From the IMG/VR virus record IMGVR_UViG_3300042468_000009, positions 1-20,374 of that record: a DNA stretch of 20,374 nt, one strand, 5' to 3'. Source of the stretch: a virus. A program made the position numbers and the translations under genes. The notes under the pieces were generated by a model. It had not been told where the DNA came from. It was given only the letters and a program-made list of their open reading frames with translations, and did no database searches. Positions 1,902-6,131 of this stretch are shown one piece after another (position 1 is the first letter of the stretch; every line of letters begins with the position of its first letter).

Positions 1902-2536
1902 ACATAAATGTCATACTCTTAGACTACGATAGGCACGACTATACTCAGAGGGTAAAGGATGTGAACTTCAATAACGCAGGTTATCCTTTTGACTTTACCA
2001 TAGTCGATATGAAAGGAATCTCACGAGCGTTGAATCACGGAATCTTTCAATCGAGAACATACGATGCGGTAGTTACAATGGCTAACGATATTCTTATGCC
2101 TAATAGTTGGCTCGAGAGAATGGTTCAAGCTATGATAACTATTCCTAATTCAGGGATGATAGGAATTCACACAGTTGAAAGTATCTCAGAGCCTACTACT
2201 ATAAACGGACTCCAAGTACACATACAAGAAGCAGCCTTCGGTAATGTTCTTATACCGATGAAAGCCATCGACAAAATCGGTTACTTCAACGAGGCTTATG
2301 ATCCTTATGGTATGCAGGATAGAGATTACTCCTATCGGTTACAAATGACAGGACATTTGAACTACTACCTAAGCGGACTCCGAGCAGAACACATCGGACA
2401 CGATGTAGGTCAAGATACTCCTTACCGAAAGATGAAGGATGAGGGACTAAGCAAGTGCGATTACCTATGGGCGAGAGAGACAGGAAAATACCAAGAAGAA
2501 AACAACTATACTATCTATCAAACAGAATGGCTATGA
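1898..2536 (+). CDS. GT-A fold (family 2-like) glycosyltransferase
   Basis: A 212-residue protein, from the ATG at 1898 that overlaps the preceding stop (ATGA). An ATG three codons upstream (1889) is also open but would break the overlap pattern. The N-terminal strand MNINVILLDY and the MANDILMP segment (61-68) resemble the nucleotide-sugar site of GT2 enzymes, where a D-x-D or N-D pair holds the metal. FNEAYDPYGMQDRDYSYR (130-147) matches the later acceptor/catalytic motif (usually E/Q-D-x-D-x-x-x-R). GHD (167-169) may supply the late metal-binding His. It is shorter than many GT2 enzymes and shows no membrane helix, so it is probably cytoplasmic. With the GT-B enzyme and acyltransferase it forms a glycan-modification set of unknown acceptor. 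Confidence 0.75.
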   Translation: MNINVILLDYDRHDYTQRVKDVNFNNAGYPFDFTIVDMKGISRALNHGIFQSRTYDAVVTMANDILMPNSWLERMVQAMITIPNSGMIGIHTVESISEPTTINGLQVHIQEAAFGNVLIPMKAIDKIGYFNEAYDPYGMQDRDYSYRLQMTGHLNYYLSGLRAEHIGHDVGQDTPYRKMKDEGLSKCDYLWARETGKYQEENNYTIYQTEWL

Positions 2537-3066
2537 TAAAGCTACCTATCAATCAAGTAAAAGCGAATCCGAACAATCCGAGAATAATAAAGGATGATAA
2601 ATTTAAGAAGCTCGTGCAAAGCATTAAGGAGTTTCCTGAGATGCTTGAATTAAGACCTATCGTAGTTAATGAGGATATGGTTGTCCTCGGAGGTAATATG
2701 CGACTCAAAGCCTGTAAGGAAGCAGGACTCGATAAAGTACCTGTTATCAAAGCAAGTAACCTAACCGAAGAGCAGCAGAAGGAGTTTATCATTAAGGATA
2801 ACGTAGGATTCGGAGAGTGGGATTGGAATGACCTTGCGAATAACTGGGAGACAGAAAAGCTACAAGAGTGGGGATTAGATATACCAGGTTTTGCTATCCC
2901 ACCTTCAGAAGATGAGTTAATAGGAGAAGAAAAGAATAAGCCTCCTACTATGAAAATTACTTTCCAAGCTGTGGAAGATTTACAACAGGCTGAAATAGAT
3001 ATAAGAGAATTGATAGATAGAAAATATCCGAAAGCCTATTTTTCAGTTTCAGCAGGAGAGATATGA
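2533..3066 (+). CDS. ParB/sulfiredoxin-fold domain protein
   Basis: From the ATG at 2533, which overlaps the previous stop by ATGA, the protein is 177 residues. Another in-frame ATG lies at 2527, and longer versions starting at 2455 would overlap the glycosyltransferase heavily. IKLPINQVKANPNNPR (2-17) is the usual start of ParB-like nuclease domains. LGGNMRLKA (52-60) corresponds to the GERR-type nucleotide-binding motif in its phage form. EFIIKDNVGFGEWDW (84-98) is the segment that in many phage proteins links a ParB domain to a fused DNA methyltransferase. Here the protein ends after an acidic tail without a methyltransferase domain, and a Mom-like gene follows with a 4-base overlap. Phage ParB-like domains may bind or cut DNA or bind CTP; a role assisting DNA modification is inferred from context, not shown. 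Confidence 0.8.
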   Translation: MIKLPINQVKANPNNPRIIKDDKFKKLVQSIKEFPEMLELRPIVVNEDMVVLGGNMRLKACKEAGLDKVPVIKASNLTEEQQKEFIIKDNVGFGEWDWNDLANNWETEKLQEWGLDIPGFAIPPSEDELIGEEKNKPPTMKITFQAVEDLQQAEIDIRELIDRKYPKAYFSVSAGEI

Positions 3067-3659
3067 GATTAGAGAAAGCATCACATAAGGCAATAGTTTA
3101 TGCTTGTATGAACTTTCATTATTCTAAAGCTATACCATCTACAAGAGCTAAACCATTAGGATATTCAGTATTTAATGATAAAAATGAATGGTGTGGAGTT
3201 ATCATTTTTAGTGGAGGTGCATCAGCTAATATGGGTACACCTTATGGATTAAAATTTGGTCAATATGCAGAATTAGTTAGAATGGCATTGAATGGTAAGC
3301 AAGAAAGCACTTCAAAAGCTATGAGTATAGCAATAAGGCTTTTAAGAAAATCCTGTCCATCAGTAAAATTACTGATAAGCTATGCTGATAAAGGTCAAGA
3401 TCATTATGGTACAATTTATCAAGCAACAAATTGGTATTTTGTAGGTGAAAGCGAAAGCTCAGGAATTGATTATTATTTTAATGGCAAATGGAGACACGAT
3501 AGAACATTGAATGATTATGGTAGAGATTTTCTTATCAAATTGCCAAAGAGAAAAAGAAGCGGAAAATATAAATACATTTATCCATTAGATAAGAATTTGC
3601 TATCTATGTGTAATAAGTTAGCTAAGCCTTATCCAAAGAAACAAGCGGATATAGCATAA
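3063..3659 (+). CDS. Mom-like DNA adenine modification protein
   Basis: A 198-residue protein that I read as the Mom family, named for the phage Mu protein that converts adenine to N6-methylcarbamoyladenine and so protects phage DNA from restriction enzymes. Matching features, in order: FHYSKAIP (18-25), GVIIFSGGA (45-53), YAELVRMAL (68-76) and ISYADKGQDHYGTIYQATNW (105-124), a GNAT-like layout with the conserved HYS, ELVR and SYAD groups. The C-terminal part (about 150-198) is basic, suitable for DNA contact. The start overlaps the ParB-like gene by ATGA. Codon use differs from its neighbours: Leu is nearly all TTA/TTG and Arg nearly all AGA/AGG, with many A/T third positions, which suggests recent acquisition. 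Its last 15 bases are also the 5' acceptor stem and start of a tRNA. The exact base modification made here is unknown. Confidence 0.82.
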   Translation: MRLEKASHKAIVYACMNFHYSKAIPSTRAKPLGYSVFNDKNEWCGVIIFSGGASANMGTPYGLKFGQYAELVRMALNGKQESTSKAMSIAIRLLRKSCPSVKLLISYADKGQDHYGTIYQATNWYFVGESESSGIDYYFNGKWRHDRTLNDYGRDFLIKLPKRKRSGKYKYIYPLDKNLLSMCNKLAKPYPKKQADIA

Positions 3660-3716
3660 TGGTAATGCACTGACTTTCCAAGTCAGGGATGGCGGTTCAA
3701 TTCCGACCTATCCGCT
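3645..3716 (+). tRNA. tRNA-Gly (anticodon UCC)
   Basis: The acceptor arms GCGGATA (3645-3651) and TATCCGC (3709-3715) pair perfectly. The D arm is GCAT/ATGC around AATGGTA, and the anticodon stem CTGAC/GTCAG (3670-3674, 3682-3686) holds loop TTTCCAA with TCC at 3677-3679. The T loop TTCAATT is normal, but its stem GGCGG/CCGAC has one G-A mismatch and an extra C before the acceptor stem. CCA is not encoded. The 5' end lies inside the last codons of the mom-like gene. UCC reads GGA, a Gly codon common in this phage, so it could aid translation. Alternatively, the element might be a remnant used as an attachment site. Confidence 0.85.
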
Positions 3717-3742
3717 CAATAAATTAGAAGGAATAAAGAGAA

Positions 3743-4105
3743 ATGGCAAACGAACAGAACTTAATACCGGCTAAGAAGGGAGAGGTAAGGAATCCAAACG
3801 GGAGACCTAAGAAATACGTAACGCTACTTAGAGAACAAGGATACAAGCTATCCGAGATCAACGATACTATACAGACTATGCTTCAGATGGACTTGGATGA
3901 ACTAAAGGAGGTATGGGATAACCCGAAGGCTACGATATTAGAAAAGACCATAGCCAACGCAATGAAGAAAAGCCTGGAGAAAGGTAGCCTGTATTCGGTT
4001 GAGACTCTCTTGACTCGTGTATACGGAAAGCCAAAAGAAACGCAGCAGGTTAGTACAGACTCTCGAATCGAGGTAGTATTCGTACAGGGTAAAACTATTC
4101 TATGA
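3743..4105 (+). CDS. terS: Terminase small subunit-like protein
   Basis: A 120-residue protein whose stop overlaps the large-terminase start by 4 bases (ATGA), the classical location of the small subunit. The N-terminus has KKGEVRNPNGRPKKY (11-25), the NPNGRP motif seen in small terminase-like and DUF5681-type phage proteins. A helical middle (about 26-105) and a short beta-rich end follow. The family recognises the packaging site on concatemeric phage DNA and regulates the motor. No clear helix-turn-helix can be picked by eye, so the call rests on context and the N-terminal motif. An AGAAGGAA stretch sits 13-20 bases before the ATG, further than a usual Shine-Dalgarno site. The tRNA lies just upstream. 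Confidence 0.72.
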   Translation: MANEQNLIPAKKGEVRNPNGRPKKYVTLLREQGYKLSEINDTIQTMLQMDLDELKEVWDNPKATILEKTIANAMKKSLEKGSLYSVETLLTRVYGKPKETQQVSTDSRIEVVFVQGKTIL

Positions 4106-5253
4106 GGCTTGAACTTCCTCAGCCACATACTAACCAACAGAAAATCCTCGACTCACAATCGAGGTTTCGTGTTGTAATGTGTGGGCGAAGATTCGGGAAG
4201 TCAGAGTTAAGCCAAATAGAGATCATAACGAACGCACTACTCGGAAAGAATGTAGCGTACATCACTCCTACCTATCAATTAGCCAGAGTATTCTTTGAGC
4301 GGTTAACTCAAGCAGTTCCGTTTCAATCCAACAAATCAGAACTCACAATTAAGTTCCCGAACGGTGGCTCGGTGGATTTCTTTACAGGTGAGAGACTCGA
4401 TAACCTTCGTGGTAGAAAGTTTCACCTCGTTGTAGTGGATGAGGCTTCGTTTATTCCTAACCTCGAAGATGGGTGGCTTAACTCTATCCGACCTACCTTA
4501 ACCGACTACAAAGGTCGAGCTATATTCCTATCGACTCCGAAGGGTAAGAACTTCTTCTACTCTCTATTCTTAAAGGGAGGCGAACCCGATTGGGAAGCTT
4601 TCCGATTTACCACATACGATAATCCTTACATAGATAAGGGCGAGATAGATGATGCACGCACACAACTCCCTGAGGTAGTATTTGAGCAAGAGTATATGGC
4701 GAACCCTGCTGAGAACTCATCTAACCCATTCGGTTCTTCATACATCAAGCAATGTACTTTCCCCATATCTCCCGAACCTGCGATAGTGTACGGAGTGGAC
4801 TTAGCTAAAGCGGTGGATTGGACTGTGATTATCGGACTCGACCGAAATGGCTCTGTCTGTCATTTCGATAGGTTTCAGAAGGATTGGAGACAAACAAAGC
4901 AAACGATTCTAAGCCTAAATAAAGCCCCTATTTTGATAGATAGCACTGGGGTAGGTGACCCTATCTTCGAAGATTTACAACGCGAAGGATTGGCTATAAA
5001 TGGCTTCAAATTCAGTTCTACGAGTAAGCAGCAGCTAATGGAGGGATTATCCTCAGCGATTCAGCAAAGAAAGATAACTTACCCTGAAGGGAATATAGTA
5101 AACGAGTTAGAGGTATTCGAGTATCAGTACACCGCTACAGGGGTAAGATACTCCGCTCCTCCTGGCTTTCACGATGACTGCGTTATGAGTTTGGCTCTTG
5201 CTTGGCATCACTATACTCGTAACTCAGGTCAAGGTAGGTATAGCTTTGCTTGA
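4102..5253 (+). CDS. terL: Terminase large subunit (packaging ATPase and nuclease)
   Basis: A 383-residue packaging motor protein. The ATPase domain shows Walker A GRRFGKSE (28-35; Lys33), a Walker B strand ending LVVVDEAS (109-116; Asp113, Glu114) and coupling motif STPKG (144-148). The RNase H-like nuclease domain begins at VYGVDLAKAVDW (229-240; Asp233), continues with ILIDSTGVGD (277-286; Asp280) and ends with FHDDCVMSLALA (356-367; Asp358/359), giving the expected acidic triad. Length is at the short end for TerL but all motifs are present. It cleaves concatemeric DNA and pumps it into the prohead through the portal. In most siphoviruses the portal follows TerL; here the tail module follows and the portal is about 10.6 kb downstream. 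It is the last gene of the left operon, followed by a 114-base gap. Confidence 0.95.
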   Translation: MRLELPQPHTNQQKILDSQSRFRVVMCGRRFGKSELSQIEIITNALLGKNVAYITPTYQLARVFFERLTQAVPFQSNKSELTIKFPNGGSVDFFTGERLDNLRGRKFHLVVVDEASFIPNLEDGWLNSIRPTLTDYKGRAIFLSTPKGKNFFYSLFLKGGEPDWEAFRFTTYDNPYIDKGEIDDARTQLPEVVFEQEYMANPAENSSNPFGSSYIKQCTFPISPEPAIVYGVDLAKAVDWTVIIGLDRNGSVCHFDRFQKDWRQTKQTILSLNKAPILIDSTGVGDPIFEDLQREGLAINGFKFSSTSKQQLMEGLSSAIQQRKITYPEGNIVNELEVFEYQYTATGVRYSAPPGFHDDCVMSLALAWHHYTRNSGQGRYSFA

Positions 5254-5353: not shown

Positions 5354-5367
5354 ATCTATTTATGAAT
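5354..5367 (+). promoter_or_regulatory. ATCTATTTA-N5 initiation motif that places the start at 5368
   Basis: ATCTATTTA (5354-5362) is followed by exactly five bases and the ATG at 5368, as before the genes at 12087 and 15298. The ATG at 5362 would lie inside the motif and has T at -3, while 5368 has A at -3 and -6. The motif therefore favours 5368 as the real start. Confidence 0.5.
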
Positions 5368-6105
5368 ATGACTTGGAAAAACGTAAACGTATTTCAATGG
5401 CAGCAAATCGTGGATTTGTTCACGAAATCTAAAGACTTAACTGAGTTAGACTTAGCAGTTAAATGCGTGGCTATCCTCAAAGGGATGACTGAGTATCAAA
5501 TAGATTCGATGCCTCTCGGTGAGTTAAACCCACTTCTCAAGTCTATCGATTTCATTCACGAAGAGATAAAGCCTGAGCCTCAGAAGTTTATTAAGGTAGG
5601 TAAGAAACGCTACAAGTGTATCTACGATGTGCGTAAGATTCCTGCTGCTCGTTATATCGAGAGCAAGTACTTTGCTAAAGATGTTAACGCTAACCTACAT
5701 AGAATCGGTGCTTGTATGGTTATGCCTATGAAGAAAACCCTTTTCGGGTGGAAGGTAGATAAGTACGATGCGAGCAAGCACGAGGACTACGCTCAGGATT
5801 TGTTGGAAGCTCCTATAACTGCGGTACTCGGAAGCGTGGTTTTTTTTTGTCTCGTTTACAGGAATTGGATAAAGGCTTCGAAGGATTATTTGGTAGCAGA
5901 GATGATGGAGAAGAGCTTGACGAAGTACCAAGCAGAGGTTCTGTATCAAACTTTATGCGAGACTTTGGATGGATTTATCAAGCCTCATTGGTGGCTGAGT
6001 TCGAGAGAATCACGATGGAAGAGGTTTACGATATTCCTACAATCCAATTCCTTAACGACCTTTCTTACCTCAAAGCGAAAAACGAGTACGAAGCAGAGCA
6101 GTTAA
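5368..6105 (+). CDS. Tail-assembly-chaperone-like protein, zero-frame form
   Basis: A 245-residue protein (247 if started at 5362). Its position two genes before tail structural genes and four before the tape measure, together with a slippery run inside it, matches the gpG/gpGT-type tail assembly chaperones that bind tape measure protein. Residues 1-160 are a mixed helical domain (KVGKKRYKCIYDVRKIPAARYIE in the middle) resembling Bacteroidota phage proteins of this position. After the T9 run the zero frame continues FFCLVYRNWIKASKDYL and stays protein-like to about IKPHWW. It then becomes Ser/Arg/Thr-rich and looks out of frame, up to the stop at 6105. The last 77 or so codons overlap the -1 frame completely. 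Most ribosomes would make this form if the shift is programmed. A sequencing error in the T run could also explain the two frames. Confidence 0.7.
   Translation: MTWKNVNVFQWQQIVDLFTKSKDLTELDLAVKCVAILKGMTEYQIDSMPLGELNPLLKSIDFIHEEIKPEPQKFIKVGKKRYKCIYDVRKIPAARYIESKYFAKDVNANLHRIGACMVMPMKKTLFGWKVDKYDASKHEDYAQDLLEAPITAVLGSVVFFCLVYRNWIKASKDYLVAEMMEKSLTKYQAEVLYQTLCETLDGFIKPHWWLSSRESRWKRFTIFLQSNSLTTFLTSKRKTSTKQSS
5840..5848 (+). other. T9 slippery run, probable programmed -1 frameshift site
   Basis: Nine T bases follow GG at 5838-5839. Relative to the zero frame they contain the heptamer T TTT TTT (5841-5847), which lets both P-site and A-site tRNAs re-pair perfectly after a -1 slip. The -1 frame is open from here to 6131 with a conserved-looking sequence. 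T runs of this length can also cause RNA polymerase slippage, or assembly errors. Confidence 0.65.
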
Positions 6106-6131
6106 AGAAAGCCAATGGCAAAGTCCGTTAA
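5847..6131 (+). CDS. -1 frame extension of the tail chaperone (gpT-like part of the fusion)
   Basis: This frame has no ATG of its own near the start (it would need TTG at 5847), so I read it as the C-terminal part of a 254-residue frameshift fusion covering 5368-6131. The first 40 or so residues are an acidic linker (FGSRDDGEELDEVP). Then FMRDFGWIYQASLVAEF and MEEVYDIPTIQFLNDLSYL form helices typical of the second chaperone domain, ending in a charged coil KAKNEYEAEQLKK. Codon use is regular for this phage. It overlaps the next gene's start by 17 bases. If the family parallel holds, the fusion is the minor form that recruits tail-tube protein while both forms coat the tape measure. Independent initiation at TTG 5847 cannot be excluded. 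Confidence 0.65.
   Translation: MSRLQELDKGFEGLFGSRDDGEELDEVPSRGSVSNFMRDFGWIYQASLVAEFERITMEEVYDIPTIQFLNDLSYLKAKNEYEAEQLKKANGKVR

Follow-up and report, generated by a model that had tools for sequence, protein, structure and literature searches.

A Glycine-Type tRNA Element Linked to Mom-Family DNA Modification Genes in an Exchangeable Phage Cassette

Introduction

The DNA modification enzyme Mom of bacteriophage Mu yields a product given as alpha-N-(deoxyribosylpurin-6-yl)glycinamide (Swinton 1983, cited in PMC3874153), and the donor of this modification is not settled in the literature that we searched. Glycine is also used outside the ribosome in Staphylococcus aureus, whose cell-wall tRNA-Gly has weakened T-stem pairs and has lost G18G19 (PMC4052509); U73 guards glycyl-tRNA against deacylation by DTD (PMC6097841). 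Here we describe a locus in an IMG/VR virus fragment of 20,374 bases (IMGVR_UViG_3300042468_000009; this whole stretch is called the window), in which a gene for a ParB-like protein, a gene of the Mom family and an element resembling a glycine tRNA form an exchangeable cassette next to the terminase genes. The reading that we favor, and regard as probable from the sequence comparisons, is that a nonribosomal glycyl-tRNA would donate glycine to Mom. We know of no DNA-modification system in which amino acids reach bases through tRNA.

Results

The features on which the argument depends are as follows.

2533-3066, plus strand: ParB-like gene, 177 amino acids (Pfam ParB_N PF02195, 1.5e-8; phrog_498, ParB/DNA methyltransferase, 8e-29)
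2533-2892, plus strand: constant N-terminal module of ParB/Srx fold, residues 1-120 (PF02195, AF2 model, Foldseek, identity across enzyme classes)
2893-3066, plus strand: Mom-class C-terminal tail of the ParB-like protein, within the swapped cassette (class-specific tails, end of homology at 2891/2893, model)
3063-3659, plus strand: mom, a Mom-family GNAT-fold DNA modification enzyme, 198 amino acids (PF25680, 1.2e-34; phrog_1384, 4e-46)
3645-3717, plus strand: tRNA-Gly(UCC)-like element over the 3' end of mom (ARAGORN; covariance model, 77 bits; Rfam RF00005, 51.7 bits); anticodon at 3677-3679, unpaired T-stem A at 3706, U73 at 3716, full CCA not encoded
2892-3717, plus strand: exchangeable cassette of ParB tail, mom and tRNA (blastn breakpoints against close relatives)

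Linkage of the element to mom

Contigs in the collections compared here are redundant and related, and counts across loci are thus not independent. In about 236 loci, ARAGORN reported tRNA genes in 55, all of glycine type or with a defective anticodon and all beside mom. A covariance model, R1, was built from 17 training sequences that ARAGORN finds in these loci; most of its matches lie outside the training set. In the phage group, each Mom locus with sequence beyond the mom gene gave a full-length R1 match next to it (39-91 bits; the contig of L186 stops within mom, so that this locus is outside the count), and R1 found nothing in 100 loci of the same group that have no Mom (900 kb). When loci were sampled by similarity of the terminase large subunit (TerL) alone, the element was present in nine of nine Mom loci versus none of the 71 others (Fisher 4e-12, not corrected for phylogeny). 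Sister phages with 94% identical flanks and a methyltransferase in the same slot have no element.

The association extends beyond this phage group. The element stands beside mom in 27 of 57 loci from bacterial genomes, in many phyla, and most of these copies are invisible to ARAGORN; phages of Salinibacter, Arthrobacter and Microbacterium also carry it. Its position and strand vary by lineage: measured from the mom end it lies at -17 to +54 nt, on either strand, or else it precedes mom by 45-60 nt (547 in L303), and about one-third of the phage-group elements are on the strand opposite mom. In the window its first 15 bases overlap the mom end, and in Chloroflexota the gene order is tRNA-mom-ParB. 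A scan for a GCG...CGCT hairpin around mom in loci without a model match was discarded as a source of further elements, because its background of one per kb was too high. On a tree of Mom proteins the tRNA label changes about eight times, versus 23 when labels are shuffled, which fits an old tRNA-mom linkage with losses. Taken together, these genomic facts argue strongly that no other partner of Mom is as specific as the tRNA. A preliminary description, made from the letters of the window alone, had rightly placed a tRNA in the cassette but had left it without a role.

Features of the RNA

G1-C72, C2-G71, G3-C70 and U73 are kept in all 106 distinct elements, and C35-C36 is invariant in both alignments examined (A3 and A5). 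These nucleotides constitute the identity set of bacterial glycyl-tRNA synthetase (GlyRS), which the element therefore retains. ARAGORN, pair counts and Rfam agree on a tRNA-Gly cloverleaf, in which the acceptor and anticodon stems covary and other stem pairs show compensatory change. An unpaired A interrupts the T-stem in 95 of 102 elements but in none of 16 ordinary phage tRNAs, and the window element, having this A, likewise lacks the unbroken 5-bp T-stem of an elongator tRNA. Of 79 phage-group elements, 41 have an 8-nt anticodon loop (7 nt in the window) and 25 lack the D-loop GG. Five of six loci tested gave no Rfam tRNA match, and 16 of 23 genome elements encode a 3' CCA. What decays in these sequences appears to be what the ribosome needs. 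The interrupted-T-arm tRNA-Gly is an RNA family that mostly escapes standard annotation.

Shrunken elements of 66-67 nt, in which the acceptor stem and CC anticodon are kept and the D or T arms reduced, were also seen beside mom (L290:4168-4234, L293:5583-5649, L295:5565-5631 and L262:2276-2341).

Exchange of the cassette

The suggestion that mom had been swapped into a slot held in relatives by a fused methyltransferase is borne out by close relatives. The nearest phage, L083, matches the window by blastn over 1-2891 (94% DNA identity) and again over 3718-5249 (89%), with no identity between the two segments, and in the gap it carries a methyltransferase fused to the same ParB. L082, likewise about 94% identical up to about base 2891, also has a ParB-methyltransferase fusion there. 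Breakpoints against L087 and L180 fall at 2893 and 3718, and those against L086 and L187 at 2880 and 3718. The left breakpoint is therefore inside parB, at about codon 120, and the ParB tail belongs to the cassette; homology returns at base 3718. These comparisons strongly support replacement of ParB tail, mom and tRNA as a block. Downstream of the cassette, the conserved border and the sampling anchor are:

3743-4105, plus strand: small gene in the position of the terminase small subunit, DUF5681-like (PF18932, 1.7e-4, under the curated cut-off)
4102-5253, plus strand: terminase large subunit, which served as an independent anchor for sampling (PF03237, 1.8e-12; phrog_2, 3.9e-50)

According to Pfam and scripts, the slot can hold Mom, a fused methyltransferase, a TET/JBP dioxygenase with a glycosyltransferase, a TET-associated glycosyltransferase, a C5-cytosine (5mC) methyltransferase, an ABC-ATPase/GNAT protein, QueD/QueE/FolE-like genes or a PAPS-reductase-like protein. 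Size and profiles of the window's own proteins served to assign the fused and Mom classes. The sample drawn by TerL similarity alone comprised 80 loci: 41 with a fused methyltransferase, nine with Mom (one of them truncated at the ParB end), 14 with other modifiers, one with a PAPS-reductase-like protein, two with ParB but no enzyme, and 13 without ParB.

Several of these slots deserve description in their own right. L117 (1962-5640) and L119 contain genes for a QueD-like 6-pyruvoyl-tetrahydropterin synthase, a QueE-like radical-SAM protein and a GTP cyclohydrolase, together with a protein that is DpdA-like by eye only and has no Pfam match; this looks like a 7-deazaguanine DNA system behind the same ParB. 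An ABC-ATPase fused to a GNAT domain is the ParB partner in L102, L104, L105, L118, L210, L220, L221 and L230, where ParB has its own tail (mostly DLSDKI..FRIEV..ECRLLTL) and there is no tRNA. In L151 a cupin-like protein and a PAPS-reductase/DUF3440 protein are accompanied by a second ParB-like gene, and this slot may encode a sulfur-based DNA modification.

The ParB-like/Mom pair

Among viral contigs, the 80 Mom proteins most similar to that of the window (57-100% identity, with much redundancy) are all encoded directly downstream of a ParB-like gene, and the 4-base overlap, ATGA at 3063-3066 in the window, is kept in 71. Enterococcus phage phiEf11, Salinibacter phage B2_17 and Microbacterium phage Appa carry the pair as well, and Arthrobacter phage BarretLemon has both genes with one small gene between them (Pfam). 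Among 57 Mom genes from bacterial genomes, about 40 have ParB beside them, in many phyla, mostly upstream and in Chloroflexota downstream; Mu-type Mom genes have no ParB-like neighbor. The pair is thus real and conserved, not a product of chance. Its two profiles (PF02195 and PF25680), its overlap and its recurrence in other phages all uphold the two-gene linkage of the preliminary description, which had also named in advance, as tests of its proposal, a Mom-family match for 3063-3659 and joint occurrence of the two families in related genomes; both were found.

Both protein assignments are secure by profile and predicted fold, and for Mom also by the match to the Mu Mom structure. In the ParB-like protein, profile matches span only residues 2-106 of 177; the model has a short tail after them, with little room for the parS-binding helix-turn-helix and C-terminal dimer domains of canonical ParB. 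The N-terminal module, which carries the ParB_N domain of the ParB/Srx-fold family, was modeled by AF2 with a pLDDT of 84.5, and Foldseek matched it to ParB (7bnr) and to sulfiredoxin folds. The Mom-class tail reads ...MKITF..EDLQQAE..ELIDRKYPKAYFSVSAGEI and is modeled as one helix (residues 147-164) with extended segments on either side. The ParB tail is specific to the enzyme class, whereas the first 120 residues can be 100% identical across classes, including between Mom-type and methyltransferase-fused loci. We infer that the tail couples ParB to its enzyme; the class-matched tails favor the earlier idea that ParB serves the modification enzyme, a role that is less certain than the rest of our interpretation. 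Two further kinds of ParB tail were noted: zinc-ribbon-like tails on ParB-like genes that precede the terminase with no enzyme (L091:4753-5199, L093:1244-1696 and L192:1244-1696), and CPxC-type tails at the ends of distant Mom-linked ParB proteins (phiEf11, B2_17, BarretLemon and Appa).

The PF25680 match to the window Mom covers the whole domain (residues 4-192), and a profile match to the Mu Mom structure 8bv8 reached 9.5e-29. The AF2 model (pLDDT 92) superimposes on 8bv8 with a Z of 19.6 and an rmsd of 3.5 over 181 residues at 28% identity, which supports a predicted GNAT-type fold like that of Mu Mom. The two proteins share conserved HY, R, D and YQAxN residues. In the profile alignment Ser84 corresponds to Mu Mom Ser124, the residue changed in the solved inactive mutant 8bv8 (the entry's numbering offset of 9 is our deduction). 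No com gene overlaps the start of mom as in the Mu-type com-mom operon; in the window and in 80 of 80 close relatives a ParB-like gene is upstream instead. The codon use of mom had been described as unlike that of its neighbors. This holds for composition, in that no other window gene has G+C (31.5%) or GC3 (18%) as low as mom, but by synonymous-codon likelihood mom is not an outlier (z 1.6).

Elsewhere in the window, two glycosyltransferase genes and a hexapeptide acyltransferase gene lie upstream of the ParB-like gene (187-2536), and a T run at 5838-5855, where open reading frames 5362-6105 and 5847-6131 overlap, may mark a programmed frameshift.

Discussion

Sequence comparison strongly supports the cassette, its swapping, the matched tails, the Mom-tRNA linkage, and the identity set and covariation of the RNA. 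We propose that the locus is an exchangeable anti-restriction cassette, in which a constant ParB-fold module (residues 1-120) is joined to an interchangeable tail, itself matched to whichever of many DNA-modifying enzymes the cassette encodes. Host GlyRS would charge the cassette RNA through its intact identity set, and the deformed T-arm would keep the glycyl-RNA away from EF-Tu and the ribosome. Mom would then move the glycyl group onto adenine of the phage DNA, giving N6-glycinamide adenine, as in Mu, or an isomer, and the modified adenine would block restriction. By way of its tail, the ParB-like protein probably holds Mom on the phage DNA. Because the Mu product amounts to adenine plus the atoms of a glycyl residue, and a glycine-type, apparently ribosome-avoiding tRNA is tied to Mom, glycyl donation is the simplest reading.

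Several observations weigh against glycyl-tRNA as the donor. Direct glycyl transfer would yield the N6-glycyl-adenine isomer, so that the known glycinamide would need a rearrangement or a different attack. After Mu Mom, the nearest solved fold relatives are acyl-CoA-binding GNATs, and no aminoacyl-tRNA transferase ranks above GNATs in the VIA-align list for Mom, although absence of that family from the list is not evidence. The copy in the window looks little different from a canonical tRNA (7-nt loop, GG, TTC) and is accepted by both ARAGORN and Rfam. R1, itself trained on these loci, gives ordinary tRNAs about 30-60 bits and therefore does not by itself mark the element as special; what counts is the absence of the element from the controls. 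Finally, no element was found beside mom in Mu, Listeria, Proteus, Salmonella, Pseudomonas and Corynebacterium, nor in Paenibacillus, Yersinia and some actinomycete Mom loci. A dedicated tRNA is thus not strictly required, and Mom genes that have no element may use host glycyl-tRNA or another donor.

That tRNAs are frequent in phages, and that the window element passes tRNA thresholds, would suit an ordinary translational tRNA or attachment-site remnant hitchhiking with the cassette. We think this quite improbable, because tRNAs are absent altogether from sister phages that have near-identical flanks but other modification enzymes, every element is of tRNA-Gly type, the T-stem is broken or the anticodon loop odd in most of them, Rfam misses five of the six loci tested, no integrase was recognized in the window, and order and strand differ among lineages. 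The overlap or close abutment with mom might instead reflect a tRNA-like regulatory or processing RNA for mom (compare Com in Mu), for example a control that senses GlyRS or RNase P; artificially expressed Mom is toxic (PMC12707154), so that tight control is expected, and tRNA mimicry in mRNA control is known for ThrRS (PMC7373986). Yet elements on the opposite strand, or upstream of mom as in Chloroflexota, could not act in cis in one mRNA throughout, and an encoded CCA fits charging better than cis-control, which makes this explanation, too, decidedly improbable.

Mom might alternatively take its group from coenzyme A (CoA) or another small donor, with the tRNA affecting only the supply of glycine or another precursor. 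Its GNAT fold is compatible with this, and a review treats Mom as an acyltransferase that draws on an acyl-CoA, for instance glycyl-CoA (PMC7824862); the proposal leaves the invariant GlyRS identity set and the loss of ribosomal features unexplained, and we consider it improbable. A separate doubt concerns ParB alone, which could be a packaging, nuclease or partition factor with no role in modification, at a site where enzymes are swapped since it tolerates insertions. Its position directly before the terminase genes and the enzyme-less ParB-like proteins there (L091, L093 and L192) suit such a role, which we rate as unlikely. Against it stand the breakpoint within parB, the own tail or fusion of each enzyme class, and the adjacency of ParB to Mom in unrelated phages with no adjacent terminase and in many bacterial phyla.

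The combined proposal, that Mom is aminoacyl-tRNA-dependent with a dedicated deformed-T-arm glycyl-tRNA as donor and that the ParB module with matched tails is a general docking platform for many modifications, stands in our view at about even chances. If a dedicated glycyl-tRNA is the donor, tRNA is a route by which amino acids arrive at DNA bases, and the donor question can be reduced to one in vitro assay. A ParB platform with enzyme-matched tails would in turn offer a route to new DNA modifications, by inspection of what follows residue 120 in these phages. We found no link between Mom and glycyl-tRNA in the literature searched, which lacked most preprints and subscription papers, so that earlier publication is possible.

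Comparison with Known Systems

With its pair, swap cassette and tRNA-Gly link, the finding goes beyond the preliminary description and is larger than first described. The window Mom shares family and fold with Mu Mom (PF25680; 8bv8, Z 19.6, 28% identity), whereas Mu mom is preceded by com and has neither a ParB-like neighbor nor a tRNA. Phage ParB-DNA methyltransferase fusions (phrog_498) share the site before the terminase and a ParB module whose identity over 120 residues reaches 100%, but there the enzyme is fused and methylates, while the window ParB ends in a tail followed by a separate mom. In a variable region of a cryoconite Mu-like phage, an acetyltransferase replaces a methyltransferase near ParB and TerL in phages otherwise similar (PMC7468147); this is a single case, and the portion of that account available to us describes no Mom assignment, tRNA or tail matching. 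The enzyme classes of the slot are among those predicted as DNA modifiers by Iyer, Aravind and colleagues (TET/JBP, GNAT-ABC, deazaguanine and Mom systems, as cited in PMC7824862); a tRNA link to them was not found in the literature searched, which did not include their 2013 paper. The closest RNA counterpart is the nonribosomal tRNA-Gly of the S. aureus FemXAB system, which has an altered T-stem, sometimes no G18G19, a conserved U73 and a nonribosomal glycine acceptor, as proposed here. That tRNA is host-encoded, serves a cell-wall acceptor and has weakened pairs with no unpaired A, whereas elements of the window type are encoded by phages or prophages and paired with a DNA-modifying enzyme.
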